From Muricea muricata (Eukaryota > Cnidaria > Anthozoa > Malacalcyonacea > Plexauridae), in contig OY979726.1 in NCBI GenBank assembly GCA_963855995.1, positions 1,948,501 through 2,012,500 on the forward strand: a stretch of DNA of 64,000 nt. The letters run 5' to 3'. Of this stretch, positions 1 to 34,965 are shown piece after piece (position 1 is the first letter of the stretch; each line of letters begins with the position of its first letter). The translations under genes were made by a program, and so were the position numbers. The notes beneath the pieces are model-generated. The model worked only from the letters and a program-made list of their open reading frames with translations. It had not been told where the DNA came from and made no database searches.

Positions 1-357
1 AAGGTAAACTTTTGCGTGATATTGTTGTAGGGCTATCTAGGGGCATAGTCCAGTTCTTTACTGAAGTAAAATGACACTTCCATTTTTAGTCAATAAAAGT
101 CAAGGTACTGAATTTTACGTATTTTAAGCAAAAAAAATATTGGAAAAACATACTTATGTTAAAGTACTACTGAAATAGAATTTGATGGAACATTTATTTG
201 GGCAATAGTTGAACGGTAACGGCCCAGAGCCACACTCTGATTCCCGGGCTCTCTAATATCTCTGGGCTTTTCTGTTGGTCATGTAACTTAAAATAATACA
301 GACCGTATTAAGGACGATATTGAATTGCATATCGCAAATTGTGTCAAATACTATAAT

Positions 358-1079
358 TTAGGAGAGTTTATTTCCGATAACATTTCCAGTACCTTGAATT
401 TGGACGGTTTCTTTCTTAACTGATGCTGTACCGTCATTATTATCGTTGCTGATAAAGTTCTCACCAGGTTTTCCTTCGATTAAACGTTCAGAATACTTTC
501 GACCATTTTGTTCCTTTGCTTTGAAAACATTCACTTCTCTTTCTAATCGTTTTCGATCCGTCTCTATTTCTTCGATCTGAATTTGAAGTTCTTTTATCTG
601 GAATAGATGAAACAGCAAACTTGGTCGGCGCAAACATATCATCAATTCAATATCATAACAAGATTATTTGCACTGTCAGATTAACCAAGAGAAGACAAGA
701 CAAGAAATTATCAATTAAAAATATGTTTTTAATTCTTACTACACAATGAAGCTCCGATTCTTTTTTCCTCCAAGCTTCTTTTTGCTTCCGGAATTCTTCG
801 GCCATTTCAGAATGAACAGCGTTGCATTCACGTCTAAAAAGAGAAACAAAATTAATACAAGGGCAAACTGAGAATATTAGGTTTATAGATTAAATTTCCT
901 CCTGTAGTAACATTGGATCAATAAGAAATGATCCTTACTGGACTCCTAGAACAATAATGTAGAACTGACACAGAAAAACCATCAATCTACCTTAATCGTT
1001 GTGTCCATTTATTCTCCATATCTTCCAGCTCTTTACTCAAATTATTGGAGTAACTCTCCCGTAGTCTGTCTATCTCAGT
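358..1079 (-). CDS. Gene B exons 31-33: C-terminal coiled coil and stop
   Basis: Exons 1079-991 (89 bp), 833-740 (94 bp) and 597-358 (240 bp including TAA). They encode more coiled coil (TEIDRLRESYSNNLSKELED, EFRKQKEAWRKKESEL, IKELQIQIEEIETDRKRLER) and a short polar tail ending VIGNKLS. Phases 0/2/0 all fit. No motif is seen at the C-terminus. A weak 114-bp-repeat fragment lies in the intron at 895-975. Confidence 0.85.
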
Positions 1080-4000
1080 CTGTAAAATAAAAGTGCTCCC
1101 TTAATTCTGACGTTGTATGGGATCGAAATACTTTAAAGCTAAATATGGATTTTAAATTGCATGTGAATTCCAGGTTTCCAGTTAAAATAAATCTTCTATT
1201 CACAGAGATTGTTCTAAGGTGGTGATGGAACAACGAGCTGGAATGGGAAAAATACAACAATTCGCGTCCCATCGCTAAGCGCAAAAATTTTCGTGGGTTT
1301 TTTACGTTTGTAAGCCATTTATATACAGAACCCGACGGTTCTGTAACTGTAACTGTCATGTTATGTCACGTTGTATCAATTTTTATTATAAAACATACTA
1401 ATATTGTGGAGTAGAAGCTTGTTCAGGATTCCAAATGATACAAAAGCGATAAAACTTGTAAAAAATCGTTTCTTACACGTGAAACGGACTCAGTTTTGAT
1501 CATTTTTATTTTTAAACAGTAACAGTTATAACGGCAAACGTCGCGTTTCAAACGGCAAACATCACGTTACAAACGTAAAAAAAACTCGCACAAATGTTTG
1601 CGCTTAGTGGTTGGATGAAAATTGCTGTATTTCTAGACTTGTGAGTTTTGTAGTAACGGTTTACCAAACAAAACTTTGGGACTATGCGTGAACAAAAGTT
1701 ATACGTCCGCCACTTTTTTGCATGTTATGATATTGATAAACTTTTGTCAAGAAAAGTATCAAAAGTAGTTATATTTGCACACTGCGTAGCAGCTTACAAA
1801 TGGTTGTCGAGTTTTCTACCTGCAGTAAATGCGTTCTGTTCTGTGCCTTTTTCAACTTTTCTTTCACGACAAAATAATCATTGTCCTTGTCTTCGTCAAC
1901 CGAGGTCGTTTCTTCTTCATTGTTCAAACCATTCACTGAAACACGACTCGATTTACTTTGTCGGCTCTCGTTCTCGTTTGCAACCTGAGCCTTGTGCAGA
2001 GCATGCAATATTCTCTCCTTCTCCGTCGCTTCGCGGTTTATTTCCAACTCTTGCTGTTTGCCCTTTAGAACTTCGCTCTGGAGCTTCTTCCACAAGTCCT
2101 TACAATCACTTTCAAGTTGGGAAACGCGCTTCTTCAAGTACTTTTTCGAATTTTCTTTTATTTTCGACGGGCTTTTCTCGTTGTGCAATTCCTCCAACTT
2201 TAGTTTGGATTCGCCATCAGGAAAGTTGCTGCTGTTTGTCATCAAATGAAGTTTTTGTTTTTCTATTTCCAACTGATCGATGAGTTTTTCATTTTCGCTC
2301 GCGAGGAGGATGTTGTCTTCCTCCAATTTTCGCAAAGCCACTAGTTCCTGTTCGAGTTCACGAACACGGTTTTTTAATTGCTCGCAATTTTTACACTGTT
2401 CTTGTTGTTGCTGCTGCTGCTGTTGTTGTTGTTGTTGCCGCTCAACTTCTTTACCCAACTCTTCACTTCGCCCTTTCTCTTCGCTCAACTGCCGTTCGAA
2501 ATTCTCACATTTCTCCAAAAGTTCAGGGTAATTTCCAACCTGTTCCTGCAAGTTTGTGATAACTTCGTTCAATTCTCGACAATTCTCTTTTAGTTTCGTT
2601 ATCTCCGCGTCTTTTTCTTTAGTTATGGCGGTCTTTTCTTGCTCCGATAAATTTGTAAGCGAATAAAGCTGTTGAGATAAAGTCAGAGCCAAATTCCTTT
2701 CGACTTCTTGTAGTTCTTCTTGATGCAAACGTTTTAAGTTGTCCAACCCCTTCGCATGAACTTCGCAGTTGCTTTTCTTGTTGTCGTTGAAAGAAACTAA
2801 GCTATTAATTTGGGATTTCAGGTTTTGATTTTGTTTCTCAACAGAAGCGATCCTTTCTTCGTAATAAGTTGTTAGTTTTTGCTGTTCTTCAGTGTGGAAG
2901 TTTCGCGACTCTTCAAGCTCGTTTTCGTATTTAAACGCCATTAAGGATTTGTCATTTTTTATTGCTTTTAGTTTCTAAAGGGAAGAAATTGAATATGAAC
3001 ACTTGCAAATATTGTACAAAACTGAAGGATGGTTGTAACTTCTAAGCACAAAATAAATCTATAACAAATACAAAAAACGTTGTTCTGAAGTACGGATGTT
3101 CATGCATGATTAAGGGACAACTGAGTTGGATTGTATTATATATCATTTTGATAAACAAAAAAACGTTTTACAAAGCTTCAATGTGATTAATTTCTTCTTT
3201 ATTGTAATTAAATGCATTTGAAATGTATATTTTGGAGACTTGCAGTCGAATCCAACACATTTTTGGTAAAAATATTGTGGTGGATACTACGGCACACGAA
3301 AAAATAGCTTAAAATATTCAAGCTACTGAAATATAGCATTTTTACGCCAAGAGAATAAACTGTGTCTATTGAACGAATTTTTTAGATCGACTGTTCCATC
3401 CACCATATTAGCCCAGCTTTCAGGTCCGCTTATGTCCAATTCCAGTTTCTCTTTTGCATGAATACATATATAACAATAACAAGAACAATTTGCACAGAGT
3501 GGGTAATATCCCGCATTGCAAATTTACCGAATGATATATTTGAACCAGTGTGTGCACTACGACTAACCATAGTTAATAGAGTAGATGGTTTGGAAACTCA
3601 TTAGAATAGCAATATATCTCATTATCTATGTTGGTCAACGTTTATGCAAAAATATGGTTCTTCATCGTCACGTGTGTATTGTGTTTTTGCCAAATCCACC
3701 AATAGCAATTCTTGAATTACCCTATTGTTCAAGTCGCGCATGGCTAACTTTCCTAAAACGTTGTTATTGGTTAGTTAGGCAAGAATACAATACGCACGTG
3801 ACGATGAAGGACCTTATTTCCGCATAAACCAGAACAACAACATAGATAATGACTTATATTGTAGTTCTAATGAGTTTCCAAACCATCTAGCTCTATTAAC
3901 TACGGACTGACAGTGTTCATAATATGCCCCTTAAATGTCATGTGATGTAAGCTTGTTTTCAACCGAAGAACGTGGTAGCGCAAACATCATTCGAACTGGG

Positions 4001-7000
4001 CGAAAAACATCGAATATTTGCTGACAACATGACAACAAACAGTATTCATAATTTTATTTTATCTTGTATGTGTTATGTCAAAGTCTCGTGTCTTGAAAAA
4101 TCGTGATTATATCTAGCAGGATCGAAGGAACTAGACTCAGTTTTGAAATATCACATACTCAAACCGACCTGACACCTTACAGGGACCGCGGAGCAATTTT
4201 TAGATTGAGGGGGCCGAATGCTTAGCTTCCCAGGGATGGGAAGGGGGCCGGGGCAACAATCGAGTCCCCATTCTTGCTTCATTCTTTTTCAACTTTTTTC
4301 CGTTTTTTTAAGTTTTTTTCTTAAACTATCTTGCGGTTGCGACGTGCTTATGTTTCTTGTTGGGGTTTTTTTCGTTCTTTATTAGTAAATACTGGAAAAA
4401 ATATATGTATGTTATTTCGACGCCAATCCTTTTGCTGGATGTCAGAGTGCGTTTTCCCAAAATCACAGCCAAAATGTCAGTAATGAGGTGCTCTTGACCT
4501 GAGCTGTAACGCTACTTATTGGAAAAACGTCAAGTAGCACTGGTTATAATTAACCGCCATTCAATCAATCACAGGAAAATTATTGGGGGGGGGGGCAAGG
4601 CCCCCGGGCCCCCCCTCCTCCGCGGTCCCTGCCTTAGCTCAGTTGGCTGAGCATTGGCATTCCAAAGATCGCAGGTTCCATTCCCGCCGTGGTCAGGCAT
4701 ATTTTTAATTTGCTTGGCGTTGAATATACAGTAGACTCAGAGTAATGACATCTCAAACATAACAGAAAACATCGAGAATGAAAGGCAGCCTTTGTCATAA
4801 TTGTTTTCACGTTAATTACTCTCTTAAAGCCACTTCTAGAAATGTTTAAACAAGGGTGGCGCATGCAAATTCATGCAAATCTCCCGCGTTTGGCAACACA
4901 AAGACAATATATAAAAAATGTGTAGTTGTAGTTGGATAATCGGCCGATCACGCACGACGTATAATCGTCCATATTTTCTCTTCACCTCATCCAGCCACCC
5001 CGTACCCTGGTACCATGCATGCAGTGTGTGGTAAAATTCATAAGATGACCGTATACTTTAATAATTTGAATAACTTCTATACAGTACATAACTTCTTTGT
5101 AAGGTTGCATGCACAATACTATGCTTAAGTTTGTAGAAATACGACAGGAAAACTTATCATCGCAAAACCTTCGATCCGTTTGCTCGGATCTTCATCAGTG
5201 CAATTAACGCTCCTTAATTTTTATACTCGATGACCTTATCGCAAACATTAACGTAACAATACGTATAGTCACGTCAAATTTCGGTATTGTGTCCTCGTAT
5301 TTAGTACTTTTTTAGTGAATGCGAAGTGTACTTTTTATTCACTATAACACATACTAAAATATTCTAAATTTCTAATAACTCTAATATAGTGCCTGTGTCT
5401 GCAATGCATGACGTTCATGTTGAATTAAAATTATACCCAGACAAGCATAAAATATAAATTGAAATCGCTAATACAGTTTCATTTAATATTTAGCCTCAAT
5501 TATAGGTGCCTATATGTACTGCATTATACAATATGGTTGTATTTATATACAGTGTCCAGAGCAATTAATATTGTATGTACTCTGATCGACTTACCATTTC
5601 CAATTGTTTGATATCGTTGTCACTTGGTAAACATTCAGGAATATTGGCTGATTGTTTCACCTCCTCATTCGAGACCATCTTATGGTCCAAACTCGTCTCT
5701 CCCTGTTCTTGGTTGGCGAGCTCTGTCTTCAAAGCCTCGATTGTATTTTTACTTAAAATTTCATCCACAGAATTTAACTCATCTTCAGCTTTGAGCAATC
5801 GTTTGAACGTTTGGTTTTCCTTTTCGAGCGTTTGTAGTTTCTCGCCAAATTCGTTGCGAAGTTTTTCATTTTGCAGCTCGGCTTGCTGTTTGTCCTTGTA
5901 CAACTTTTCGTTCATCGCCAACAAGCTTTTGTTTGCCTTCATAAGCTTTCGACTGAGCTGTCTTAGTTGTTTGACGTCCATATTTTGAGGCAGCGATGTT
6001 TTCGAAGCTTTCGATTCTTCAGTTACTTCACCAGAGGGATCTTTAACATTCGTCGCTTTATTTCCTTCTTCGCCCTCTGTAATAAATCACAAATACCAGA
6101 AATGATGATTGGTTTCAAAACGGCGTTATTGTGCTCCACGCACTGAGCTCTAACTCAGTGGCTCCACCATAAAGCAATATTATCATCAATGTTAACGTCA
6201 TGCAAATTTTGCAGTAATAAGTTCAATGAAGCGAGAACTATTTGGACATAATAGCTTTCCAGCCACTACATGTTCTTCATTATTGCCCATATATGCAATA
6301 ACGCATAGCTGATGGTATTAAAAGCAAGCTCGCCTACATTGACTCACGGTTTTTTTCTATTTTTGTCGAACATCTGCTTGGTAGGATAGTACTTCCTAAG
6401 CCCTCTCAAAACTGACATATGCTTGTCTTTTTTTTAGTTTCTAAAGACAATTACTGCCAAGTTAAGTGCATGTCTGCTGTATTTTTAATCGGCTAGTGAA
6501 ATTTGTATTCGCAGGAGGAAACGGTTGAGGCGGGTTATAACTGGGTACGTTTCTGTGATGGTCATGAAGAGTTAGCTTCAAGTTTTGAAGCGGAATTTTT
6601 AAGAAATGCTATAAGTATATATTGATTTTTGATTAAGATGATGATTAATCCGTTTTCCCAGTTGGTGATTCCTTACGAATCAGTCTTCAAATCTGAGAAT
6701 TTACCCTCATAAAAATTCCTGTTGTGAGGAGCGCTGAAACATAGAAACTAAATGACAACGCGATGGCATTTCTTAACTGTAAAAACGGCTAAAATTAAGA
6801 CATAGCCTTCATAAGGAGAAGCTTGTAAGACATAAATTGAAGCTTTGCTGTAAAAGGGTGGCTCGTGGGAGGAGGTGGGGTAAGGTTTAAGATTAAGATT
6901 AGTGTTAGAGTTAATGAACTGCCACAAAATCATAGTTTACCCTAACCTGTTCGCGGGCATCTAAATTAACATAAATTGCGCTTCCTCTTTCAGCGACTCC

Positions 7001-10000
7001 CTCCATAGTTTAGTGATCAGGGTATTGTACAGGCATCTCAAAGGTGCGATTAATTCTGCAAGATAACCTATTTTGACATGTTTGACACGGTTCTATAGGC
7101 CAGAAAAGGACCCCTGCGGACAATGCAATTGACTGGCCCGAAACTGCGTAATGAACATGCGCATAAGGCGCGACTACACAAACTTCGAAGATTCTGCTTC
7201 GAGTGGTTCTTCTTGACGAGGCCGCAAGGCAAGGCAGCCTTCCAGAAATTTCGATAAAAGGTAAACTTTTACAACGGGCCTGCTTTTACAACTAGCTGAT
7301 CTGACCGTGAGTAAAAGGCCTGGAACTAGCTACCAAATAGAAATCCATTTTGCTGTTGTTAATCACTTATATCTTTTGCTTTCGTTTGTGAAACTTGTTG
7401 AAACTTAGTAACTCTCTTTAATAAAGAAAATTATAAGTCTGCCAGAAATTTAGAAGCAAAGTAAATTATATTTCATGAGAAATTTGATCATTTGGATAGA
7501 AAAATGGATTTCTACTTGGCAATTAGTGCTAGTACTTTTTCGTGTTTTCAGATCAACTGGAATATATGAACTTTCAGAAGATCTTGCTGATTTATACAAT
7601 CACAATTTGCTTCTAGCGCTTGTGGGACGTGTACACCCACGCATGCGTAAACTAAGCCGCGACGTGTTCTGTGCTACTTACCTTATTTTCAGGTATCGCC
7701 TTCCCCCATTTGGGACCGGTCATTATTAATGAAAGGGGGCGAGAGTGGGGTGGGATGTCTTTGCGTTAGTGAGTAAGTGGCGTATCAACTTTTTCAAGGT
7801 CGAAATTTAGCTGATCTCTAAGCGCGAAGAGCATGATGGGCGGCATAAACCTGTCAATTGCCAGATTAAAATGTTTTTAGATTTTTTATAATTACCGAAT
7901 CATGCACAATTCGCTCGTGCTGCTCAGAGACTTTGGAAGTTTAAAGCCTGTTTTTCCAACGTTTTGCGTCGCGCAATCAAATTCGCCTAGTGGAAATATT
8001 ACCGTACTTCTTTGCAGTGTATTAATAATTAGTGTGTGTTTAATAAATAGAACATGCCATTAATATCATTATTATCATCCCAATTATCAGTAAATCATGC
8101 ACTAACTATTATCATAGTTAATAGAGCTAGATGGTTTGGAAACTCATTAGAACTACAATATAAGTCATTATCTATGTTGATGTTCTGGTTTATGCGGAAA
8201 TAAGGTCCTTCATCGTCACGTGCGTATTGTATTCTTGCTTAACTAACCAATAACAACGTTTTAGGAAAGTTAGCCATGCGCGACTTGAACAATAGGGTAA
8301 TTCAAGAATTGCTATTGGTGGATTTGGCAAAAACACAATACACACGTGACGATGAAGAACCATATTTTTGCACGAACGTTGACCAACATAGATAATGAGA
8401 TATATTGCTATTCTAATGAGTTTCCAAACCATCTACTCTATTAACTATGCTATTATGATTATGTACAAGTTAGTATAAATTAATTTTATAATTGTTTTTG
8501 TTAGTTCATTACTCCGTAGTTTAAAATTAAGGTCTAACTTTTGGGTATGATATAAAATTATTTGCTTGATGTAACATTTAAATACACAGTATCATTAGTA
8601 ATAGTACCAAACAGTGGTATTAGCGTTAATAAAGCCAAAATGATAATTAGTTATCTGAAAGCTTAAAATATACATTTAGTTTTTATATTATTTTAGGTGT
8701 GTGTAATATTATTGTTACCCAGAATAGGGATATACAGAAGATTTCATTCAAGTATATAATGTCTCCTCACTTCTGCACTGCGCTTGTTGTTCTACACTTT
8801 TAATTTCCTTGCTAGAAAGATAGCGACGAAAACTGTCAGTCGTTTCGAACCAGTGAACTCTCTATAATTCTACCTGGAACGATAACATGGCCGCCATCTT
8901 TGAAGCCAAATTGAAAGCCGCCATTGATAACCAGGAGTAAAAAAAGTCGCCCATTTTCAAACGCTGTTTAACACTGCAATAGCGCCCTTTTAATCTGGTT
9001 TAAACTCAAATGTCTTCTAGTCTCAAAACAGGGTTAAAAAACAGCGTTTACAACGGTGATTTTTTTGTGGCTACTGGCAATCATAGGCGGTCTGAAATTT
9101 TGCTTCAAAAATGGCGGCAAGTTATCGTTCCAAATATAATTACACAGAATTTATTGGTCAAAATGCGTTTAGATTATTATAGCAGTTTAATGGTGGGAAT
9201 TTACTAAACCGGCTAAGTTTTACTTTGCTAGGAAGACGACGGCTGTGGGGACAAAAAACATCAAAGCCCTTATGAGGAGTGAGACTTCTGTTGTATCCGT
9301 ATTCTGTGATATTAGTTAGTATTAATGTTACATATATTAATTACAACACCCACTGGAAGTCAGCTCTAAATCTCTTGGAATTCACTCTTGATAAAAACCA
9401 ATCTCCCTTGAGCTAAGCAAAAGACAAAATCCAGCACACAAGACGATGATTAGTAATAAAATAGTAAAATATATTGTTAGTTAAATATATTGTTAGTAAA
9501 ATATATTGTATGTGTCATTGATACATAACGCTATAAATATTTACAATTGAATAAAATATACAAGTTCCATTTGTGCAAAAATATATAAAAAAAACTTTTC
9601 AATTTCAAAAGTAGAAATATTTCTTTGATTTGAGCAATTTCTGCCGCAAAATCAAAATCACCTTTCTTTGTCTGTTTACAATGGTATTGTTGGACAAAAT
9701 GTGGGAGAAAACCTTTCTTAGTTTCGACACTAAATTCCGCCCCACAATACCATTGGCGACTATTTCAAAACCAGTTTATTTTGAAACGCCAATTTCTAGC
9801 AAAAATTATCAACGTTCGTATAAGTAGAATAAAACTACTTTAAATACCGCAAGAATAGTAGTAAATAAATATGTTAGTAATATGCTACGATATATTAGTA
9901 AAATACAATTCTGCTAAATTACGAGGTACAATTAAAAATGCATATGTTATTGTCGTCAGTAATGTAATACTAAAGTTAGTACATTAGTAGATTATTTTAC

Positions 10001-22000: not shown

Positions 22001-25000
22001 ATTTTGTTACTTCCTCGATTTTTCTAAAGAGATGAAAACTGATCTGTCGAACTGATTTGTCAAAACAATTTTGCCTTACCAGATTTCATGATGTGAATCT
22101 TAGCGTTTGATTTTGTAGTTTGTTGCAGGGTTTTAAATCATGGAGTAGTGATTGGATTGAAGAACTTTCCGCAGTTCATAAAGAAGCAATATGGGATATT
22201 GCGGCGTCCGAGCAAGACTTCTCAACAACCGAACGTCCTTCTTCAGTGAGTTAGCGTGCAATTCCTAAAGTTAATGAAACAAACCTTGATCCATTCATGT
22301 TTCAGACACTCATCAGCCGATTTCCTCTTGCTAAACGAAAATAAATAACTTTAGATTATAGCTCTGTTAGTTGACAACAACAGATCACCTGAAACTATGA
22401 TTAGTGCAAAGTATGGACAAGAGAGTGCTCCAGAATAACTTAGTTTAACGCGACTTCATTGCTTGTCATCCCATGTACTTCTTACTGAAAAGACAATGCA
22501 TGGAACTATAACCAAGCACTTTTCGATAAGAATCGTACAACGTCATTACCTTGGAGGCTTTTGAAGCAACTTTTCAATGAAGTCTTTAGCTTCGTGGCTG
22601 ATCTCAGTGAAAGCCTCGTCGTCAAAATCATATTCAGCAGCAGTGACATAAGACAACGTTTCCTGGTCGTCATCGCCCAGGAAGGGAGACAGACCACTGA
22701 TACTGAAAATAAATTGGAAAGCATTTCACTTTATAAAGAAAAGATACACTTGTATTGGTCTTTCTGTTATTCTTACATTCATGAGAATTTATTAAACCTT
22801 CAGGGGTCGGTTGTACGAAAAGTGAAGAGCGCTAGCCACCGGATGGGGATTTTTTTAAAACATTCTAAACATGTTACAGTTACTGGTAAAACCCATATCA
22901 AAGCTCAGCATTTTCGGGTTGAAGTCACTTTTCATCTCTTTATACAACCGACCCCAGTCTTCTAGGAAACTATGTTAAACGTTTGCATTATTTTCATAAA
23001 TTTCTATATTCGGCAAAACTGATCAAGCCCCGCTTTGCCCAGTGTTCAACCTATAAGCTTTTCCTTTCGGTATTAGTCTTTTTTGAAAACCGCAAACATC
23101 TGTGGATTGCTTTGGGGAGCAATGCCACACTTCAAAACTACTCCAAAATGTAAAATTGGAGCAAGAAAATATAAAAGATTGCTCATTATTTCTAAGGAAA
23201 GCCTCAAAGGCTATTTGCACTATTTTCTTGTCTCATGACTGCAGCTCTCTATTTGCACTGTCCCTCGGATCTATTAATTGTGTCGAGGCATATTATACTT
23301 CCGATACCAAAACCTTCAGCTCTAGGCTTAAGATCTCTAGTGGCCCCAAAGGAACGAGCCAACAACAAACGATCATTTATGCCCACTTACAGAATATAGG
23401 CTATGACACCAACGCTCCTGTAAAAAGATAATTTGAGATCATTAAACGATTTTTTTATAATGGAGAGCATTAGAGAGTCTTCAGTGAAAAAAAAACACAT
23501 TTGCATTTTAATTTTGGCTGTGACTGTTATCAGTAATAATTGTAGTTTTCACTCACCACATATCGCTTGCGAGGCAGACTGGCTCAAAATTTATCACTTC
23601 CGGAGCTAAAACGAGAGACGAATACATAGGTAATGAATATGAATATATTCTATTAGCTTTATTCATAGATTATACTGATTTTTGTCTCTCAAACTCACCA
23701 ACAAATTCTGGCGTTCCTTGCATAGTTTTAACAGTCTTTCCTGGTTTTAATTCTTTGGCCAAACCAAAGTCGATCAACTTGATATCCCAGGTGTCTTTGC
23801 TTACACAAACAATATTCTCAGGCTAGAAAGAAAAGAGAAACATAAATTTTTGAAAACTTGCAACATATAGGGCCAGATATTGTGGTTTTTTTCAACAGAT
23901 ATTGCTAACTGCTGGCGAAGGACGCAACTACACATCTAGAAATGCCACAGACTCGATGCAAGTTGTGGATCTTACCAGCTTGATGGAAGTTGTCATCAAG
24001 TTGCATCAAGTCTGTTGTCTTCATCAAGTTGTATCTGGTCCGTGACTTGATGCAACTTGATATTTTCAGACTAGCTGCAAGATTTTGGAACAAATTCTAT
24101 ACCAAGCTTGTGGATAAAAAGTCTTGACGACGATACTCAAATTCAAACTACATAACGAAGTTCGCCCACCTTCAAATCTAGGTGGACGACGTTTAACTTG
24201 TGCATGTATTGTAATCCCTCCAGTAACTGCCTCATATAGTACGCACACTCTTTCTCAGTCACCGTTTCTTCATTCGCTATCCTTTCAAACAATTCACCAC
24301 CAGTTATGCTGTAATGCAGGAAGATTGAAGTGTTTTAGTCAGCAATATAGTTCAAGCTCGATTGCATTGGAAAATCAAAACATTAACAAGGAAACATTTT
24401 TTTAGAAATTAAGAACACAACAGACTTACTATTCCATAATAAGAACAAAGCTTCTAGGAACTTCGTAAGCATCGAACAACCCAACCAGTCGTCTGTGATT
24501 TAGTTTTCCCATAATCTGAATTTCTTTCAGAACATCGTCTTTCGTTTGACTCGTAACTTTCACCCATTTCGCTGCAAATTCTTCTTGAGTTGACTGTTTC
24601 ACTACGCGTTTTACCACTCCAAATTTACCTCTGAAAATTTAACAACAATAAGTTAAACAAAAAACGAAAGGTCTTGAGCATTTGGTAAACAGTTTAGTTT
24701 AGGCTTCCTCCTGTAGTAACACTGGATCAATAAGAGATTACCCTTAATGGACCTCTAGGAAAAACAGTTCAAAACTGATAAAGCTATCCAGTATAAATAA
24801 AGTTAGTTTAGGTTTCCTCCTGTAGTAACACTGGATCAATAAGAGATGATCCTTACTAGACCACCAGGACAGCTCAGAACTAAGTAGCATACGTCAGTTT
24901 AGTTAGTCTAGTTTAGGTTGATGTTTACTGGACCTCTAGAAAGAACGATTTAGCTAATACAGCTATAGTTCTTCCCGTAGATAGAGAACAATTTTATTAA

Positions 25001-28000
25001 AACTGTTAGAAGAATTCATGTATAAAGCATTTCAATTCAGTAAAAACTCTCACCTTCCCAATTCCTCATAAATCGTATAGTCATCATCGACTTTCGATTT
25101 CTTAATTACAACAGGTGAACGTGGAACATGATTCAGTTGCCCTAAAAGTCAAATTGGAAAAAGAATGAGATATAAAACATTATCGCCATATTTGATATTC
25201 CTTTGTTATTTTTTAAAATGTATGTGTTTTCTTCCGACGGCGAGTTAAAAGCGGCCAGCTCACAGTAAGGAGTATCAAAAAGCCTACAGTTTCTATTTAT
25301 AAAGCGGGAGATTTATTTATGTTTGTAATTTAAATATGAATGGTTCGAAACAGGCGGTTAATGAGGTTGCCTCAAAGCTTATAGTTACAAATTAAGGAAT
25401 TATTTTAGATAAGTAATTGTTGTTTAAGTATAGAGTACGTACACGGGTCTCAATGAGAGTGACAATGATAATTAATAACCGCAAATTCTCGAAGCAACCT
25501 TACTGAGTTTGTTTCCATATCAGATTTAGTTATTTATAGTTCAATATCAGACCTTTTTAACTCAATACCTCCCACTTCCTTATTGGGAAGTAAAAAGGTG
25601 CAATATCGTTTGCAAATGCATTGACCGAGTGGGCCCTTGGCACAGAACGTTGCGACAACGCTGAAATTTGGTTGAAAATGCGTAGACAACGCAATTTCAA
25701 CGCAATGCTGACGTTATTTTACCAACATTGGCGTGGCTAATTTTATGATGTTGATTTTACATGCAATCTCAACTAGTTTCCTCAACGCCGATTCATCGTT
25801 CAGACATATTTGACGACTTGTTCCCAAACTTGTTTCAACGTTAGGGAAGTAACGTCGATTCAATTTGCATTTACAATGTTCTTTTAACGTCGATTAAACT
25901 CTATGAAAGTGATTATAGACTTTGATTTAGCCTTTAACCAACGTAATTTCACCAGCAGGAAGCTTTGAGATGCTGCACAAAGCAGGCAACTTTTGAAGTA
26001 TTTAAAAATCGTGATCATTTATGATATATAGAATCATTAATTCCATAAAATATTATCCAGGGGGTAAAACAGCACATGCATGGGTACTGTTTACTGTTCT
26101 CCGATATAATGTTAGTGTGTTGTAATAAATTGTTTATTTTACCTTCGCTGTTCAAGTTTTCGTCCTGAAAAGAAAGAAGGGAAACTAAGAAATTTGTTAA
26201 AAACTTTTGCCGTTTTTAACACAAATCTAATTATGTTTAGTTAAAGACGATGCTTCTGTATAATTTTTCATATCAAAAAGAGTAGGATAAGAGAGTTCAA
26301 TTGCAAGTGCGATAAAAACAACCTAGCTGTAACAAACTGGTTGCAATTATGAGTAGTGAAGATAAGCAGCACTTATTTGTAAAACTAACCTTCTAAGGCC
26401 TATTTTATGCATAGAACCTTAGCTTAATTGGTCACCTATCATGTACTCATCATTGGAAAAAATTTGAAAATCATGCATGGATCTTAACTGAAAGTAGAAT
26501 TTTAGATTTCCATAATTATTCTACATTTCCATGCTATGAAAAAAGTATGACAAATCCACGTACGGAATTCAGCAAACTCATAGTTGCTATATATATGAAA
26601 GAAATTTTTATGGTATGGATTGCCAATATTCTTTCCAGGGCATATAATGGCATATACTAATACACGATTTTGCAACTGTAAGCGTGCGAGGCAAATTATG
26701 ACATCATGTCATGCTAAGAAGCATGGCTCTTATTTCATCGAGCCGATTAAAAAGAAACCTATACGACAAAGCTTCTAAGCCAACTAAGAATTTTAGAATT
26801 ACTACAGGAATGAACGATTGGAAAATTCATTCGCAAAAACTAAAGAAAACAAAGAAAATAATTATATGAAAAAAATTGGCTCCCTAATTTGTCCCTTCGT
26901 CCAACATCTTAGCCAATTCTACACTCTAAATATATTTAACTAAAAATACTTTGCCTTCTAGGGCGTTCAAGCTTGGAAGTTTACAATGGTCATTACAAAA
27001 GCAGCATTGTATCTTTTTTCAGTCTTATCACAATCCAAGATGAGATCGATAACAGTTGAGCTTCATTGCATAAACTCTCTACTTTCCCACGCTCACAAAC
27101 TGCATGAAACATTCAATGAGATAATTATGCGACAAATATGTGACCATTGGTCACTTTGTACACTCGAAACAACCACAGCTAAGTAAAATCGATGCAGATT
27201 GACACAAATCGCTGTCCAAACAAGAAATGGTCTCGAAACTCTGTCTGGTTGCTTCATGATATAGATTTGAACGAGGGATCAATTTAACACTGCTTGCAAT
27301 CCTATATTAATTGCTTCCCACGCGCTGGCACAGTTCTGTTGATATCAGCATCTTCCATTCAAAATAAACAGCCGAGAATTCGAGGTACAATTTTGCGGTA
27401 TATTTTGTATAACGATTCATATGAAGCATTAAAAGAGATTCACCACCATGCTATACAATTACTATAATTTATCACGAAGCCTTGTTCTTCACATCATTTC
27501 AACAAAAAGTGAAAATGAAATACGTCAAAATGATATAAATTGATTTTACTGCATTGAACCCTCGCCTATTTCAAGAATGCAATTTTTCGAACATGTACTG
27601 GTCAACGATATAGCCAATCTATTTGCAGGTTCAGCATAACGGTAGAATTGTAATTTATGGTCTGATAATAAGCTAAATAAAGGTTACTTTGTACTTTCTT
27701 CTTCAGAAATTAAAGATTTTGTAAAAACACGATATTGTGATAGTGTGTGATAAACGTATATACTAAAACTACAGTGTTTAAACAGATATTTCAATCGACG
27801 TGCTTCGCGCTTAATCCGCCATGATGAAAAATACAATTCGGTTCGAGCCTCTTTTACATTAAGATACAAGCATTATTTCTTGCAATTGCCTGACGAAATA
27901 TAATGCTCTTCAAAGGTTTGCCTTGTATCAAAACATTCGTCCATTGCTTTCAAAGTAAGTCACACGAACAGGACTAAAAGTCTTCAAGGAAGTCGAATTG

Positions 28001-30181
28001 TTCATCTTCACACAACAGGGAATGTACTTACCAAGTTGAAAGTCCTTCTAATAAACTTTGCAACCCTCCTCATACTTCGACTGCGATGCTGCCCAGACCT
28101 CTTGGCCTTTTCCTGGCCTTCTGTGGCCAGCATAGTAAACTGAAGTCTTTCCCAAATAAAGAAATTCTTATATCAGACTAACTTAGATGCCGTTAATTTG
28201 CTATTGTTTTGCCAGAAATATTCGCTCGCTGTCGTGAAATTGCCTGTGCATAAATTCAATGCTTCGTTAGGTTGTTTTGTGCCAAAAACGACATCAAACC
28301 ACCACGCACTTCTAGCACTGCAGGAGATTTTGCTTTGAACAGGGTGGAAATTCTATGGGAACCACTAGGTTATTAATTAAAGAAGTAAGGCTTAAATAAA
28401 TTGAGAACTTCAGGTGGAAATCACAAGATTTAAGAGGTTGGGAATATCAGCATGAAGAAATGAAATACTTCGGTGATAATTATATCATTAAAACAATTAA
28501 TTTTTCAATGAGTCACGAAAAGCAATTGAGGAACTGCAAGTTTGATATCGATACAATTATGTTCCTGTTAAAGAGGTTTCCAACAAAGAAGAGTTTTAGT
28601 ACAATAACTCATTCCGCAAAGAAGAGTTAAAAAATAAGAACAAAGTTTTCCAAAAAAACTTCAATAGACTACCACTTTGAGACAGCGCCTTCTCTTCAGA
28701 ACATGGCCCAATATCATATTCTTTAAGGCCATAATTACACTCTTGACTGGCAATTTAAATGTTCAAATGCATGAATGGCTTCATGGCAAAGAACTTTCTA
28801 ATTGAAAGACAAGACATAAAAAAGCTCGACACCCACAAGCCGATCTTACATAAGTGTTATATCTTTCTGAAGACGAATTCCAATGGCCATTTTATAGGCG
28901 AGCTGATTTATCGATTCGCATGCAAGTCATTAAGCAACTTAATTATTACAACTTAACTGTCTTGCATTGCAACCCTGGCAATTTAAATGTAATGCTTTGT
29001 AAAAAATTAAACTCTATTAATATTGTAAAAATGTGCATAATTATGAAGAATTTCGTGGCAAATTGAAGTTAATACTGTTTAATAGGCTGACGTAATATTA
29101 GGGAAATCAGTGAATCAGCAAGCAGGATTAGGTAGAACACAGCAAACTACGCGACTAAGACTTACTACAAGTTATACCGAAGGCATTTGATATATAAATT
29201 CAACAAGCAGCAAGGACTTTACATTAGCTACGTTGCGCAGGCATTCATCGATACAATTCTATTCTTAGTAATATAATCTTAATTAATCTATTCCTTATCA
29301 TCATATATAACCAAGTTACTTACCGTGCTTGCTTTCTTGTACATTTTTCCTTCGTCAGACACGATTTCACTTTTTTCATTCAAATCTAATTTCTCTTTTT
29401 CTCCTGCGTTTAAACGTTCCGTTATACTTTCAAATTTTTCCACAACTTTCTCTTGCTCTAATTGAAGTTTGATATGCTCACGCTGAAGTCGATTTAGTTC
29501 GTATTTTGTGTTTGTTAATTTGATCCCCAAATCCTCCGCTTCTACGAGAGCCTTGTCTCGCTCATCCGTCAGCGTTAGAATCTGGCTATTGAGGGAAGAA
29601 ACCTGTAATAAGATCGGCATGTTAGGATGCAAGATATTTAGTTCCTCCTGTAGTAACACAGTATCATTATAAGAGATGCTCCTTACTGGACCTCTAGGAA
29701 GAACAGTCCAGAACTGATAGAGCTATCCAGTATAAAAAAGTCAGTTTAGTTTAGGTTTCCTCCTGCTGTAACACTCGATCAATTATAAAAGATGATGATC
29801 CTTACTGGACCTCTAAGAAGAACAGTTTAGAACTGATAGAGCTATCCAGTATAAATAAAGTTAGTTTAGTTTAGGTTTCCTTCTGTAATAACACTGGATC
29901 CATAATCTAAGATCCTTACTGCACTTTCAGAACCGATAGAGCTATTCAGAAGAAAGGCGTACAGTAGTGGATCAGTATGAGGTGATCCTTATAGGACTAT
30001 TAGCATCTTCAAGTGTACAGCAAAGATCACAGGTTACCTCGCTGTCGAAGTGGCGAGCAAATGAGATAGTGGCTCGTTCAGTTTCTTCTAAGGCAACCTG
30101 TTTCTCTTTTAAAACGTTTTCATAAAGTTCTCGCAGTGATGAATATTTCTGGATTAAATCTTCGTTTTCTGTGCTTGACAT
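358..30181 (-). CDS. Giant twin-kinase coiled-coil/Ig protein (gene B), 33 exons
   Basis: Predicted multi-exon gene of 6861 nt (2286 aa), every intron phase compatible. Exons are listed in the segment entries that follow. Domain order by residue: coiled coil 1-150; kinase 1 about 168-424; calmodulin-binding-like tail 425-466; linker to 598; I-set Ig 599-693; Ig 694-788; acidic linker 789-830; kinase 2 about 835-1093; tail to 1142; coiled coil 1143-2286. Both kinases keep all catalytic residues and carry HLDLK catalytic loops, typical of the MLCK/titin/twitchin group. A role in actomyosin or cytoskeletal regulation is inferred from the family. The nearest known layout is SPEG/obscurin, but those lack long flanking coiled coils, and I see no FnIII or RhoGEF domain. 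The stop is at 358-360, and an AATAAA lies about 160 nt downstream on the minus strand (193-198). The start is the least certain part, and small exons could have been missed in introns of 2.6-5.5 kb. Confidence 0.8.
1820..2974 (-). CDS. Gene B exon 30: large coiled-coil exon with polyglutamine
   Basis: The 1155-bp exon encodes 385 residues of near-continuous coiled coil, phase 0 at both ends. A run of 12 Gln, encoded by mixed CAA and CAG around 2401-2438, is followed by a CKNCEQL motif. A Ser-rich, less helical segment (NGLNNEEETTSVDEDKD) lies near the end. The reading frame runs 5 codons or more past the donor (CAG|GTAGAA) and is open to about 1769; that extension is intron. The mixed codons make the polyQ less prone to slippage than a pure CAG tract. 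Confidence 0.88.
3570..3902 (+). mobile_element. 333-bp MITE, family 1, copy 1
   Basis: The 333-bp element has long terminal inverted repeats starting TAGTTAATAGAG and containing GATGGTTTGGAAACTCATT. A nearly identical 333-bp copy in opposite orientation lies at 8115-8447, and a diverged fragment at about 61200-61450. A short open frame across it is not a gene. Confidence 0.8.
4180..4631 (+). mobile_element. MITE with CAGGGACCGCGGAG terminal inverted repeats
   Basis: The 452-bp element begins CAGGGACCGCGGAG and ends with its inverse CTCCGCGGTCCCTG. It is flanked by CCTTA (4175-4179 and 4632-4636), a 5-bp match rather than the 8 bp expected of hAT elements. A G/C homopolymer stretch lies near the right end. 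It has no coding capacity and seems to have landed in a tRNA-like SINE. Confidence 0.7.
4632..4770 (+). mobile_element. tRNA-derived SINE-like unit
   Basis: An A-box-like TTAGCTCAGTTGG and a B-box-like GGTTCCATTCC are spaced as in tRNA-promoter SINEs, followed by a GTGGTCAGGCATATTTTT tail resembling cnidarian SINEs I recall. The anticodon arm is too short for a functional tRNA. The 3' end is uncertain. The adjacent MITE interrupts its 5' end. Confidence 0.55.
5130..5215 (+). repeat. Half foldback element
   Basis: Only one arm (tcatcgcaaaaccttcgatc, then a gctcggatcttcatcagtgc tail) is present, with no opposing arm. Likely a degraded member of the same family. Confidence 0.6.
5595..6076 (-). 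CDS. Gene B exon 29: coiled coil
   Basis: The 482-bp exon enters in phase 1 and leaves in phase 0, encoding 160 residues. A charged Ser/Thr-rich start (EGEEGNKATNVKDPSGE) is followed by a coiled coil (MDVKQLRQLSRKLMKANKSL and later FKRLLKAEDELNSVDEIL). The acceptor TTATTACAG and donor GTAAGT are strong. It is isolated by introns of 5.5 and 2.6 kb that contain MITEs, so it could belong to alternative isoforms. Phase continuity on both sides supports inclusion. Confidence 0.8.
8115..8447 (-). mobile_element. 333-bp MITE, family 1, copy 2
   Basis: Reverse-complement copy of 3570-3902 with the same length and only a handful of differences, indicating recent mobility. It lies in the intron between gene B exons 28 and 29, as does the surrounding AT-rich sequence. 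Confidence 0.8.
8851..9131 (+). mobile_element. Partial copy of the CAGTGAACTCT MITE family
   Basis: Has the left end CAGTGAACTCT and both sub-terminal inverted repeats (ggaacgataac at 8876, gttatcgttcc at 9121), but the right outer end is missing. A 65-codon open frame inside it is spurious. Confidence 0.7.
11031..11257 (+). mobile_element. hAT-like MITE (CAGTGGCAGCGCCA ends)
   Basis: The 227-bp element has imperfect terminal inverted repeats CAGTGGCAGCGCCA and TGGCGCCGCTACTG. It is flanked by TCAATATC and TCAATATT, an 8-bp target-site duplication with one mismatch, as expected of hAT transposition. It contains a poly-G tract. Confidence 0.8.
11538..12458 (-). CDS. Gene B exons 27-28: duplicated linker exons
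   Basis: Exon 12458-12291 (168 bp) and exon 11862-11538 (325 bp) look like diverged copies of each other. DENKALKQRL pairs with DENEKLRQK, and NGHSKMLNGGEGSPN pairs with NGSHRVINGNDGSPR. The second copy continues with a basic PRKRSAEPL segment and an acidic SDDDIDDNTDLFEDD run. The intron between them holds a 114-bp-type repeat unit split by a 151-bp hAT-like MITE. The donor of the first exon (GTTGGT) is weak, but the phases fit. Confidence 0.78.
11915..12240 (-). repeat. 114-bp minisatellite units, reverse, split by a MITE
   Basis: About one and a half units of the 114-bp repeat in reverse orientation (aggtccagtaaggatcatct, then ctacaggaggaaa), interrupted at 12023-12173 by a hAT-like MITE. 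In the intron between gene B exons 27 and 28. Confidence 0.8.
12023..12173 (+). mobile_element. 151-bp hAT-like MITE, copy 1
   Basis: Ends CAGTAGCGAAGCCAGCCCGA and its inverse (GGCTGGGTTCGCTACTG). It is flanked by a perfect 8-bp duplication GGTCCAGT (12015-12022 and 12174-12181). It sits inside a 114-bp minisatellite unit, so it arrived after that unit. Confidence 0.88.
12577..14190 (-). CDS. Gene B exons 25-26: kinase 2 tail and long coiled coil
   Basis: Exon 14190-14121 (70 bp) encodes GLISARVITAAGMKDEVDKK, in the position of the calmodulin-binding helix but poor in basic residues. Exon 13457-12577 (881 bp, 293 codons) is almost entirely heptad coiled coil: LTKERDELKQQLEELFDK, LEEKVLYLEKERK, LENQVELLSKELEDAHAE and others. 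One acidic Ser-rich break (SSITEEDDGDVFEDK) lies in the middle. The composition is myosin-tail-like, with no other domain. Homo-oligomerisation is the likely role (inference). Confidence 0.88.
14423..17216 (-). CDS. Gene B exons 18-24: kinase domain 2 (MLCK/titin-type)
   Basis: Exons 17216-17016, 16920-16782, 16393-16270, 15934-15886, 15777-15751, 15205-15053 and 14546-14423. Motifs: GRGRYGIIY; AVK with Lys868; alpha-C Glu883; HLDLKPQN with Asp958; DFG with Asp978; FGTPEFVAPEVV; ATDMWSVGVILYVL; and HPWIK. All catalytic residues are present. The first six exons equal those of kinase 1 in both length and phase. The last exon continues into an acidic stretch and TERLKKYYAHQK, which aligns with the start of the MLCK regulatory tail but is less basic than in kinase 1. 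Confidence 0.93.
15268..15418 (+). mobile_element. 151-bp hAT-like MITE, copy 2
   Basis: Same family and same length as 12023-12173, in opposite orientation by internal sequence. Flanks are AGGTCTGG and AGGTCAGG (7 of 8 matching). A third, degraded relative lies near 14270-14400. It is in the intron between gene B exons 23 and 24. Confidence 0.85.
15449..15668 (+). repeat. Foldback hairpin element, copy 1
   Basis: Carries the hairpin core CGCAAAGCTTTCGATCCG and its inverse CGGATCGAAAGCTTTGCG, flanked by a leader (agttccttgtatgtttgcat) and an AAAATATAAT.TTGTGGAAAC segment. Intronic in gene B. Confidence 0.75.
16430..16740 (-). repeat. 80-bp minisatellite, reverse orientation
   Basis: Three to four units of the 46660-47450 family, reverse-complemented (gtggtccagtgtaggtagta), in the intron between kinase 2 exons 18 and 19 of gene B. 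Confidence 0.88.
17612..17786 (-). CDS. Gene B exon 17: acidic linker and start of kinase 2
   Basis: The 175-bp exon encodes a Glu/Asp tract made of repeated DEEE units, then a His/Asp-rich segment, then HYDIKEEIGR, the first beta strand of kinase 2. The intron then splits the Gly-loop at the same codon as in kinase 1 (EELGR, phase 2). The acidic tract is encoded by GAG/GAA/GAT repeats and could vary in length. Confidence 0.85.
17870..18290 (+). repeat. 114-bp minisatellite array, forward
   Basis: Tandem units of the consensus block tttcctcctgtagtaacact, then ggatcaataagagatgatcc, then ttactggacctctaggaaga and gatagagctatccagtataa. Ends about 40 bp from the Ig 2 exon donor. Confidence 0.9.
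18328..18612 (-). CDS. Gene B exon 16: I-set immunoglobulin domain 2
   Basis: A second 285-bp phase 1-1 exon, the same length as the first Ig exon. It starts SPDFVREM and has PTVEWYHGD with the core Trp and RGMYKCVITNP with the F-strand Cys. The B-strand Cys is replaced (QFDVQI where FxC is expected), so the intradomain disulfide cannot form. That is common in intracellular titin-like Ig domains and supports a cytoplasmic protein. Same-orientation 114-bp arrays flank the exon on both sides. Confidence 0.93.
18650..19612 (+). repeat. 114-bp minisatellite array, forward (largest)
   Basis: About eight and a half units with exact 114-bp spacing (block starts at 19227, 19341 and 19455). Neighbouring units share private variants such as actcgataaataagag, the mark of local amplification. 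It fills the intron between the two Ig exons. Confidence 0.92.
19655..19939 (-). CDS. Gene B exon 15: I-set immunoglobulin domain 1
   Basis: One 285-bp symmetric phase 1-1 exon encodes a whole I-set Ig domain (residues about 599-693). Visible hallmarks are KPEFVDPLP at the start, the first Cys in VLMTC, the core Trp in VTWFRHD, and DEGSYSCMIQN with the second Cys, followed by a Gly-rich F-G turn. A one-exon, class 1-1 Ig is the classic shuffling-compatible unit of titin, twitchin and SPEG-like proteins. The donor GTGTGA is weaker than its neighbours. A 114-bp minisatellite array ends about 40 bp beyond this exon. Confidence 0.93.
20548..20750 (-). CDS. Gene B exon 14: acidic interdomain linker
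   Basis: The 203-bp exon enters in phase 2 and leaves in phase 1, encoding about 67 residues rich in Asp, Glu and Asn. A short amphipathic stretch (KENKEILDFL) is present but no recognised domain. It links the kinase 1 tail to the first Ig domain. The acceptor (cccacag) and donor (GTAAGT) are both strong. Confidence 0.75.
20830..21445 (+). repeat. 87-bp minisatellite array
   Basis: Seven units whose gcaactcttgttctcgtttg block recurs at 20874, 20961, 21058, 21145, 21232, 21319 and 21406: spacing 87 bp except one of 97 caused by an extra tcaactctca. Because 87 is a multiple of three, long meaningless frames run through it. A related short array is at 40140-40320. Confidence 0.92.
21460..22023 (-). 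CDS. Gene B exons 12-13: calmodulin-binding-like tail of kinase 1
   Basis: Exon 22023-21955 (69 bp) encodes a basic helix ending LKKFLAKRRWQ. Exon 21710-21460 begins KSVNAVRAVRRLSSMSSLF. Joined in phase 0, they closely follow the smooth-muscle MLCK autoinhibitory/calmodulin-binding region, in which ARRKWQK is followed by NAVRAIGRLSS. Kinase 1 is therefore probably Ca2+/calmodulin-regulated (inference from the motif). The rest of the second exon is a Ser/Lys-rich linker without a recognised domain. The donor at 21454-21459 lies about 10 bp from the end of an 87-bp minisatellite array. Confidence 0.85.
22285..25141 (-). CDS. Gene B exons 4-11: kinase domain 1 (MLCK/titin-type)
   Basis: Exons 25141-25054, 24630-24430, 24308-24170, 23822-23699, 23605-23557, 23417-23391, 22702-22550 and 22330-22285 encode a complete Ser/Thr kinase. 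Visible motifs: Gly-loop GRGKFGVV; AAK with Lys199; alpha-C Glu214; HLDLKPEN with Asp289; DFG with Asp309; GTPEFVAPEV; SDMWSVGVIAYIL; and the terminal HEWIK. HLD in place of HRD is characteristic of MLCK, titin, twitchin and DAPK kinases. No catalytic residue is missing, so activity is expected. Exon lengths 201/139/124/49/27/153 recur exactly in kinase 2. The 27-bp exon (23417-23391) encodes only SVGVIAYIL and its flanks. Confidence 0.93.
24690..24975 (+). repeat. 114-bp minisatellite array, forward
   Basis: Two to three diverged units of the 114-bp repeat in the intron before kinase 1 exon 5, about 60 bp from its acceptor. Confidence 0.85.
25620..25930 (+). repeat. Dispersed AACGTTGAAA-type repeat
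   Basis: An AT-rich segment with many short blocks mixing aacgtt, caacg and ttgaaa (gttgaaaatgcgtagacaac, aacgtcgattaaac). Similar texture occurs at 33117-33372, 42905-43165 and 58550-58740. Probably a degraded non-autonomous transposon family; boundaries are vague. Confidence 0.45.
26143..30181 (-). CDS. Gene B exons 1-3: N-terminal coiled coil
   Basis: Exons 30181-30038, 29602-29324 and 26164-26143 encode residues 1-148. The sequence is heptad-rich and charged (for example ERDKALVEAEDLGIKL), with no signal peptide or membrane segment. Exon 3 is only 22 bp, with a clean TTTTCAG acceptor. The proposed start is ATG 30181, giving MSSTENED. Its Kozak context is weak (T at -3), and the same stretch also looks like a 3' splice site: a tgctgac branch-point-like motif, a T-rich tract, then CAAG just after the ATG. 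The true start may therefore lie in an upstream exon; see the candidate at 33619-33707. Confidence 0.65.
29640..29960 (+). repeat. 114-bp minisatellite array, forward
   Basis: Nearly three units in the first intron of gene B, starting about 40 bp from the exon 2 acceptor. Confidence 0.85.
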
Positions 30182-32416: not shown

Positions 32417-32640
32417 TTCCTTGTAGGTTTGCATGCATGGTCAATATCACTATACCATTTTGTGGAAACACCGCGTAAATTTATCATCGCAAAGCTTTCG
32501 ATCCGCAAGCTCGAATCTTTATGAGTATTATGCAACTAAATTAGTCTCATATTGGCACTGATGAAGATTCGAGCTTACGGATCGAAAGCTTTGCGATGAT
32601 AAATTTACATGGTGTTTCCACAAAAATATAGTGAAACAGG
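32417..32640 (+). repeat. Foldback hairpin element, copy 2
   Basis: Same leader and inverted core (cgcaaagctttcgatccg and its inverse) with a longer, unrelated loop. Both arms extend to TGTTTCCACA, giving arms of about 60 bp. Intergenic, between genes A and B. Confidence 0.75.
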
Positions 32641-33618
32641 CTGCCCCCAGTTCCCTTTTCCGCTTTCAGGACCCTCATAAGCCAATCCTAGTATATCATA
32701 GCTCTCATTTTTTTAAATAGCATTAGACTCGTAAGTCGGTTACATGAATTAGAGTCTTTATACACAAATTAATTGACTCAGACGTTCCAATGTCAAGAAT
32801 AATTAGCGAGCATGAATATTTGATTTAGAACGCTGTTTGCTTTTTCCCAAATGCAAATGGCTAATTTGGCCTCGCAACACTCCGCTTGCCAAAATTGGCT
32901 CGTGGGCTCACTGGGCTCATCAGTCTCTTGGTAAAGATTTAACTATCTTTTGAACGAAGGTGACATTTCGAGATCTAAACTATGCATGTATGTATACTAT
33001 TGCTCGACATTTAATCAAACGCTATGTGATCCAAGTTAAATGAATACAAGCCATATCGCACCTAAAAGGGTTCGTATATACTACACATACGGTGATATAA
33101 CATCATTAATATCCTAGCGGCCTGGACGTTGTTACGAGGTTAAAAATTGGTTGAAAATTCGTTAATACTTCAACAACGCGATTTCTAAGTAATTCTTTCA
33201 TTGTTTTAGATTTAGTATTCGCAAAAAGCAAACTGTTAATGACATTGATAACGTAATTCCAACGTTATTTTAAAGTCACGTTTATTAAATCTTTTTTAAC
33301 GATCGTTTCAGCGTCTTAAAGGTGATTTCAGCCATTAGTTCAACGTTTAACAAACAAAATTTTGCCTGCAGGGTAAAACCATGCAGGCAGGAAAGTAAAG
33401 CCATATACTTGCTTCCCATCCTGCAAGTAGGCACCATATTATCCAATGACAGAAGACAGAACTTTCATGATCAAATGGAAGTTAAGACAGTTAAAAAGAC
33501 GTGCATTATAAATTAATTGGGTGCCAATAATCCATCATCCATAGACTACACTGTAATAACCCTGCAATGTTCTTCGGAAAATCTGGTTTATCACACAAAC
33601 ACTTAACCAACGGCTTAC

Positions 33619-33707
33619 CTCGCGGGGTTGAACTTTATCTCAGCTCCATTTTCACGTCGTGTTCCGTTCGAAGGTGCTACGTTTTACAGGTCTCCAGGGT
33701 GAACGTA
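33619..33707 (-). other. Candidate non-coding (5' UTR) exon
   Basis: An 89-bp segment bounded by a good acceptor (TTTTTCAG) and donor (GAG|GTAAGC) on the minus strand, between the two genes. It has no usable ATG frame. If joined to an acceptor at CAAG just inside gene B exon 1, the frame stays open for over 20 codons after a TAA but has no Met. It may be a 5' UTR exon of gene B or fortuitous. Confidence 0.3.
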
Positions 33708-34908: not shown

Positions 34909-34965
34909 TACCAAAGGAACTGTGAATGTGTAAAACGTTATTGCAGAGGATTTTTATGCATACAT

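Follow-up and report, generated by a model that had tools for sequence, protein, structure and literature searches.

A probable octocoral myosin light chain kinase with two dissimilar kinase domains and a predicted coiled-coil stalk

The Ser/Thr kinase of Aurelia is a protein of 563 residues with two Ig domains and a single kinase domain, about 60% identical to the myosin light chain kinase (MLCK) of Hydra; in the available text of that report it is described, like its Hydra homologue, as having no autoinhibitory region and no calmodulin site, and the Ca2+ mechanism in Aurelia could not be deduced (Tanaka 2018, PMC5958069). Thus, as far as that text goes, Cnidaria need not use a calmodulin site. 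Experiments with ML-7 in a sponge support an ancient MLCK pathway, and regulation by troponin is reported as unique to bilaterian muscle (PMC9287330, from its partial text). Corals and sea anemones are reported to have a connectitin with three kinases, in which kinase-A includes A1 and A2; obscurin is said to carry kinase-B as well, and OBSCN is stated to be absent in cnidarians (Hanashima 2025, PMC12198301, partial text). The last statement disagrees with another source, also cited from part of its text, according to which the canonical layout of obscurin first appears in Cnidaria (PMC12812942).

Here, we describe a predicted gene with two kinase domains in the genome of a probable octocoral. 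Its product resembles the Aurelia and Hydra kinases in being a cnidarian protein of MLCK class with two Ig domains; unlike the Aurelia kinase, which has one kinase domain and, in the available text, no reported calmodulin region, it has a clear candidate calmodulin motif behind its first kinase. The catalytic domains, the calmodulin-motif tail of kinase 1 and the Ig domains nearby also liken it to other MLCKs (vertebrate smooth-muscle MYLK and MYLK4) and to the twitchin kinases; unlike these, it has two kinases in one frame and two Ig domains, no Fn3 was found, and it ends in a coiled-coil tail for which no known family was found.

Gene model and gene boundaries

The window, a stretch of 64,000 bases on contig 11 (G000:C11:1948501-2012500), belongs to a 453-Mb, 74-contig animal assembly. 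A gene model assembled by hand on its minus strand runs from 30181 to 358 and joins 33 exons into one open frame of 2286 residues, with no internal stop and with GT-AG borders at all 32 introns (Table 1). The initial annotation had read 33 exons in a single frame, and this is borne out; the two junctions that it had singled out for long-read cDNA (14546-13457, from kinase 2 to the tail, and 29324-25054, from the N-terminal coil to kinase 1) coincide with exon ends of the model. The protein would begin with a short coil (residues 1-148), followed by kinase 1 and its tail (166-475), a linker, two I-set Ig domains (599-693 and 694-788), an acidic linker (789-834, 61% charged), kinase 2 and its tail (835-1143) and a C-terminal tail, in part coiled coil, that extends to residue 2286. 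Pfam places all four domains of the kinase-Ig-Ig-kinase core where they had been proposed. The Kozak context of the putative start looks weak by eye and exon 1 could be internal; a gene finder trained on all exons likewise starts at this ATG. The acceptor of exon 3 has the top score in the model (9.8 bits). That of exon 25 is weak (-1.3 bits), and exon 25 is the weakest link in the fusion of kinase and tail.

Table 1. Exons of the two-kinase gene model and copies of the ~114-base repeat (positions in the window)
Feature	Position	Strand	Description
Exon 1	30038..30181	-	Residues 1-48, N-terminal coil; putative start ATG at 30181
Exon 2	29324..29602	-	N-terminal coil; heptad segment, residues 36-112
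Exon 3	26143..26164	-	22 bases; restores phase (0 to 1) between coil and kinase 1
Exons 4-8	25141-25054, 24630-24430, 24308-24170, 23822-23699, 23605-23557	-	Kinase 1
Exons 9-13	23417-23391, 22702-22550, 22330-22285, 22023-21955, 21710-21460	-	Kinase 1 and regulatory tail
Exons 4-13 overall	21460..25141	-	Pfam Pkinase, E 6.1e-75
Exon 12	21955..22023	-	Putative autoinhibitory/calmodulin-binding tail of kinase 1, first half; exon 13 begins (21710) with the second half
Exon 14	20548..20750	-	Linker
Exon 15	19655..19939	-	Ig domain 1 (Pfam I-set, E 2.9e-18)
Exon 16	18328..18612	-	Ig domain 2 (Pfam I-set, E 3.2e-19)
Exon 17	17612..17786	-	Acidic linker and beginning of kinase 2
Exons 18-21	17216-17016, 16920-16782, 16393-16270, 15934-15886	-	Kinase 2
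Exons 22-24	15777-15751, 15205-15053, 14546-14423	-	Kinase 2
Exons 18-24 overall	14423..17216	-	Pfam Pkinase, E 9.2e-76
Exon 25	14121..14190	-	Last part of kinase 2 tail, lacking the Trp anchor, and link to the coiled coil
Exon 26	12577..13457	-	First coiled-coil segment of tail
Exons 27-28	12458-12291, 11862-11538	-	Last part of coil 1; a Pro/Gly-rich break begins
Exons 29-30	6076-5595, 2974-1820	-	Further helical tail; polyglutamine run
Exons 31-33	1079-991, 833-740, 597-358	-	Last part of tail, with stop codon
~114-base repeat copies	17876-18260, 18636-19602, 29642-29900, 38139-38487, 38992-39601		
~114-base repeat copies, continued	42091-42426, 50005-50645, 51038-51467, 54281-55106		

Introns and intergenic stretches of the window hold a family of tandem repeats with a unit of ~114 bases, copies of which carry splice-like AG/GT sites, and the intron that separates exons 13 and 14 contains a minisatellite of 87 bases (20838-21442). 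As to the rest of the assembly, cox1 on the mitochondrial contig (C74) lies, as read by eye, on the strand opposite to the adjacent cox2-atp8-atp6, and the contig has an open frame of 525 residues with a MutS_V match; a mitochondrial MutS gene and such a gene order are hallmarks of octocorals, and the animal is probably one. A nuclear copy of the mitochondrial cox1, with one stop, is found at G000:C1:38414782-38416095, and the GFP family has one match in the genome, with three stops, which was left aside as a taxon marker.

Because phase continuity alone is weak proof, gene boundaries were scored with a dynamic-programming gene finder that used coding statistics from the model exons, splice matrices from general knowledge and a new-gene penalty of 6; in a held-out run, whose values are given in brackets below, the exons of the tail and of the N-terminal coil were excluded from training. 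When trained on the model exons, the gene finder returned one gene at 30181..358, with 34 exons, and a separate upstream gene at 49407..35826; the held-out run returned a single gene from 46491 to 33, with the upstream gene merged in. A forced boundary inside kinase 1, between exons 5 and 6, cost 14.2 (16.5), one between the two Ig domains 7.7 (7.7), and those at the links of the N-terminal coil 6.7 and 7.1 (7.2 and 15.8). At intron 25 the cost was 18.2 (14.8) and at intron 24 it was 6.9 (9.2), of which 6 is the new-gene penalty; the link between kinase 2 and the tail is no stronger than the weaker of these introns, intron 24. Moreover, the far tail is not secure, since introns 27-29 cost little to break: 2.1, 3.9 and 3.1 (1.4, 5.1 and 6.1).

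These costs bear on an alternative that we consider unlikely, namely that the locus gives rise to separate or alternative products. The kinase-Ig-Ig-kinase protein would then end at 14414, two codons past exon 24, and the coiled coil would be a second gene or isoform starting from an ATG at 14154, inside exon 25, or would split again after intron 27. The best two-gene model has exactly this stop and this start and, with the new-gene penalty set aside, is worse than one gene by only 0.9 (3.2); the ease with which introns 27-29 are broken also speaks for it, as would two AATAAA/ATTAAA hexamers within intron 25, although base composition predicts about 1.2 by our own estimate and two is thus close to chance. 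However, the gap from stop to start is just 259 bases, as against ~7 kb to the upstream gene, an alignment to the tail of DAPK1 extends over the opening 10 residues of exon 25, and a boundary placed in intron 25 carries a high cost. For these three reasons the locus is probably one gene. The fusion of the core to coils, as initially annotated, stands insofar as there is one open frame; the joining of kinase 2 to the tail is predicted and likely, but not secure. In any event, if the products were separate, the enzyme of the kinase part would remain two-headed and of MLCK class.

On the other side, the boundary to the upstream gene cost 0.0 (2.4). A fusion with this coil-PDZ gene (49407..37204), merged with the two-kinase gene in the first gene finder run as well as in the held-out run (46491..33), was considered and rejected: with coding statistics from final exons the two come apart (49407..35826 and 30181..358), and the likely terminal exon of the neighbour (37257-37204) has an in-frame stop. 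Since held-out training merges both again, their separation is likely but not proven. The neighbour (37204-49407, minus strand) was named DLG5-like by eye and has a long coil and one PDZ domain (Pfam 3.4e-5), with no guanylate-kinase domain noticed by eye; it includes a polyHis/Gln/Asn-coding repeat (40615-41046), and its span contains 100 copies of ACACC with 99% matches (45178-45679).

Kinase class and the calmodulin motif

The Lys, Glu, HLD and DFG residues typical of an active enzyme are present in both kinases, as read by eye from the alignment. Against the PDB, kinase 1 scores best with MYLK4 (2x4f, 2.5e-81), twitchin (1kob, 1.1e-80) and DAPK1 (1.2e-80), and lower with titin (1e-67) and the obscurin chain 8ak2 (4.8e-57); kinase 2 scores best with twitchin (1koa, 8.1e-77), MYLK4 (7.2e-76) and DAPK1 (8e-76), and lower with titin (5.7e-63) and obscurin (2.2e-60). 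As the MLCK and DAPK scores are close, it is the kinase together with its tail that supports the assignment to the MLCK class. Kinase 1 shares 54% identity with a kinase on contig C3 of the same genome and 49% both with one on C10 and with MYLK4, and kinase 2 is 35-46% identical to nine other rows of A/MLCK/DAPK type over 141 columns. Identity to presumed B-type fragments at C10 is 32% for kinase 1 and 28% for kinase 2, the label B being our own reading of fragments that score 29.0 and 29.7 bits, under the Pfam cut-off of 31.7. Since they lie nearer to the A/MLCK/DAPK rows than to the presumed B-type fragments, both look like A/MLCK-class kinases, and by sequence they are of the MLCK/twitchin class and not an obscurin/SPEG pair.

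The two kinases are 41% identical to each other and have six exon lengths in common (201, 139, 124, 49, 27 and 153). The idea that kinase 2 arose from kinase 1 by a recent tandem duplication, as these lengths would suggest, was rejected, kinase 1 being nearer to the C3 and C10 kinases and to MYLK4. In a tree of the 11 rows compared (supports 35-100, most below 65) kinases 1 and 2 do not group, and kinase 2 falls with the C10 kinase at a support of 48. Because identities and tree separate them, the twin kinases would be old, or kinase 2 fast-evolving. Elsewhere in the genome, an MLCK-class kinase on C5 (L023, G000:C5:10337878-10338783) is encoded by a single frame without interruption; its glycine loop is disturbed, and it may be a retrocopy. 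The stretch G000:C9:4326653-5148408 holds at least 17 kinase-positive open frames of 1209-2479 residues over 0.8 Mb, six of them exactly 1285 residues long among the matches listed.

The core had initially been called SPEG/obscurin-like. This holds for the layout, since two kinases in one predicted frame with Ig domains between them are shared with obscurin, UNC-89 and SPEG, but not for the kinases, with their better scores against MYLK4, twitchin and DAPK. One could still suppose a sarcomeric scaffold of obscurin, SPEG or connectitin type without the Ig/Fn3 array, in which kinases 1 and 2, both of A/MLCK appearance, would be the A1 and A2 named in hexacorals with a three-kinase connectitin (Hanashima 2025, PMC12198301, partial text), and a cnidarian protein with MLCK-type kinases and Ig domains does recall the connectitin of that source. 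We regard this origin as improbable. The second kinase does not appear to be of B type, in contrast to that of obscurin, SPEG and UNC-89; no Fn3 was found at E<=0.01 in the inter-kinase stretch, which has two Ig domains only, nor did small local Ig/Fn3 profiles detect an Fn3 among the window's ORFs of at least 25 residues; and of the 26 RhoGEF matches that the genome gave, not one lies on contig 11, in an exon-by-exon search that short pieces could escape. Thus, the window gene does not appear to be a member of the obscurin/SPEG family, and in place of a long Ig/Fn3 array it has a coiled-coil tail. Moreover, C10 already holds a locus with I-set (2.6e-20), kinase (2e-69), I-set (1e-12) and fn3 (1.1e-20) matches and weaker kinase fragments. 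No RhoGEF match was found near it in the exon-by-exon search; judged by its domains, which include the Fn3 not found in the window gene, it is the better obscurin/connectitin-like candidate.

The tail of kinase 1 (43 residues) matches calmodulin-binding peptides of smooth-muscle MLCK in the PDB (5jth, E 2.7e-4), with 14 of 20 positions identical to the 5jth peptide by our own count. It has Trp, Val, Val and Leu at the spacing 1-5-8-14, which is the classical calmodulin-binding pattern. Kinase 2 has Gly at the position aligned to this Trp, and an autoinhibitory/calmodulin-binding segment is recognizable in kinase 1 only, although kinase 2 may bind calmodulin all the same. Kinase 1 is not the sole candidate for gating by calmodulin, because the C10, C5 and C3 kinases also have basic tails with Trp, as seen by eye; its tail does appear to be the closest match to the motif among the kinase tails looked at. 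Myosin regulatory light chains are candidate substrates of kinase 1: there are 25 myosin light chain matches in the genome, and all four loci that were read have the MLCK site [TA]SN[VI]F after basic residues (RATSNVF, RATSNIF, RAASNVF and RTTSNVF).

The coiled-coil tail

The C-terminal part has 1143 residues, in keeping with the coil of about 1100 residues initially annotated, but only 546 of them pass the heptad test, and a Pro/Gly-rich break (residues 1493-1640) interrupts it. Passing windows number 23/44 in exons 26-27, 0/15 in the break, 1/11 in the rest of exon 29, 8/49 in exon 30 and 4/14 in exons 31-33, with 4/16 in the N-terminal coil and 0/38 in each kinase. AlphaFold2 without an alignment predicts helices at 23-130, 132-175 and 201-292 of exon 26 (mean pLDDT 81.7) and a mostly helical exon 30 with three breaks (mean pLDDT 76.0). 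The hydrophobic heptad z is 11.6 in the tail segments, 20.4 in myosin fragments of the same genome and -0.1 in the kinases. The charge repeat is absent from the tail (z of -1.1 at 28/3 residues and -1.3 at 28) and present in six myosin tail fragments of the same genome (5.8 and 4.9). Since heptads are there and the 28-residue charge repeat is not, the tail looks like a generic interrupted coiled coil and would serve as a dimeriser or tether, not as a filament former of myosin type.

Relatives of the tail were not found in the searches made. A stretch of 1167 residues matches no Pfam family at E<=0.01, exons 26, 29 and 30, scanned as open frames, give only matches under the Pfam cut-offs, and the first 340 residues have one weak tropomyosin match (E 0.016). 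Two queries spanning most of the tail match the window only (3/3 and 5/5), with no paralogue found in the same genome; exon 26 has no relatives in the genome and viral contig collections searched, and in Foldseek it finds generic coiled coils, none at E<=0.001. A PDB search with the N-terminal coil gave no meaningful match.

ROCK, MRCK and citron kinases are of AGC class, sit on a long interrupted coiled coil with C-terminal membrane-binding domains and act on myosin, and stalks of the ROCK type tether and space their kinases. By analogy, a myosin-directed kinase on a long interrupted coiled coil could be an actin or cortex kinase that works in the same way, its stalk measuring the distance from membrane or cortex to myosin, and not a muscle protein at all. 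This is quite improbable: the window kinases are of MLCK class and the ancestry is unrelated, and the tail has no Rho-binding, PH or citron family at E<=0.01. The myosin-like rod of the initial annotation, self-assembling on actomyosin in the manner of a myosin or paramyosin tail and so building a kinase scaffold into thick filaments, would suit the heptads of several segments and the fact that myosin is the target of MLCK-class kinases, but is very improbable given the missing charge repeat, an interrupted coil and the lack of myosin-tail homology, with none of the 16 genome matches to Myosin_tail_1 (PF01576) on contig 11.

A two-headed kinase for cnidarian contraction

The reading we prefer, tentatively and with a probability of roughly 0.43, is that one gene encodes a two-headed octocoral kinase of MLCK class, with a calmodulin-gated kinase 1, a kinase 2 without that switch and a coiled-coil tether. 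At rest, the basic tail of kinase 1 would block its active site; binding of Ca2+/calmodulin to the Trp-anchored motif would free the kinase, which may then act on the myosin regulatory light chain, phosphorylating its Thr-Ser. Kinase 2 would work without the calmodulin switch, having either no gate or another kind of control, and its target would be the light chain or some neighbouring substrate. The two Ig domains would space the kinases and may bind actomyosin, and the interrupted coiled coil would dimerise the protein and tether or space the kinases rather than build filaments. Rather doubtful is the further step that four kinases would reach the contractile array with every dimer, an ungated pair setting the resting tone and a pair gated by Ca2+/calmodulin answering Ca2+.

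The gene probably encodes an octocoral MLCK whose two kinase domains differ and which, as is likely but less secure, has a coiled-coil stalk. Our literature searches found no description of such a two-kinase coiled-coil protein, which does not prove its absence from print; the fusion, if transcribed, would be a kinase architecture without counterpart in the literature searched and, if the join is real, another means, besides Ig/Fn3 arrays, of holding MLCK at the contractile machinery. Since the MLCKs of Aurelia and Hydra are reported, in the available text, without a calmodulin site (Tanaka 2018, PMC5958069), kinase 1 bears on the open question of Ca2+ control in cnidarian contraction, and its calmodulin-type tail makes that question testable: with or without a real coiled-coil join, an anthozoan kinase whose putative calmodulin-binding tail comes close to that of vertebrates offers a concrete candidate for expression and assay. 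If the reading as a two-headed dimer is true, the protein would supply the calmodulin-dependent kinase that has been missing from the picture of cnidarian contraction.
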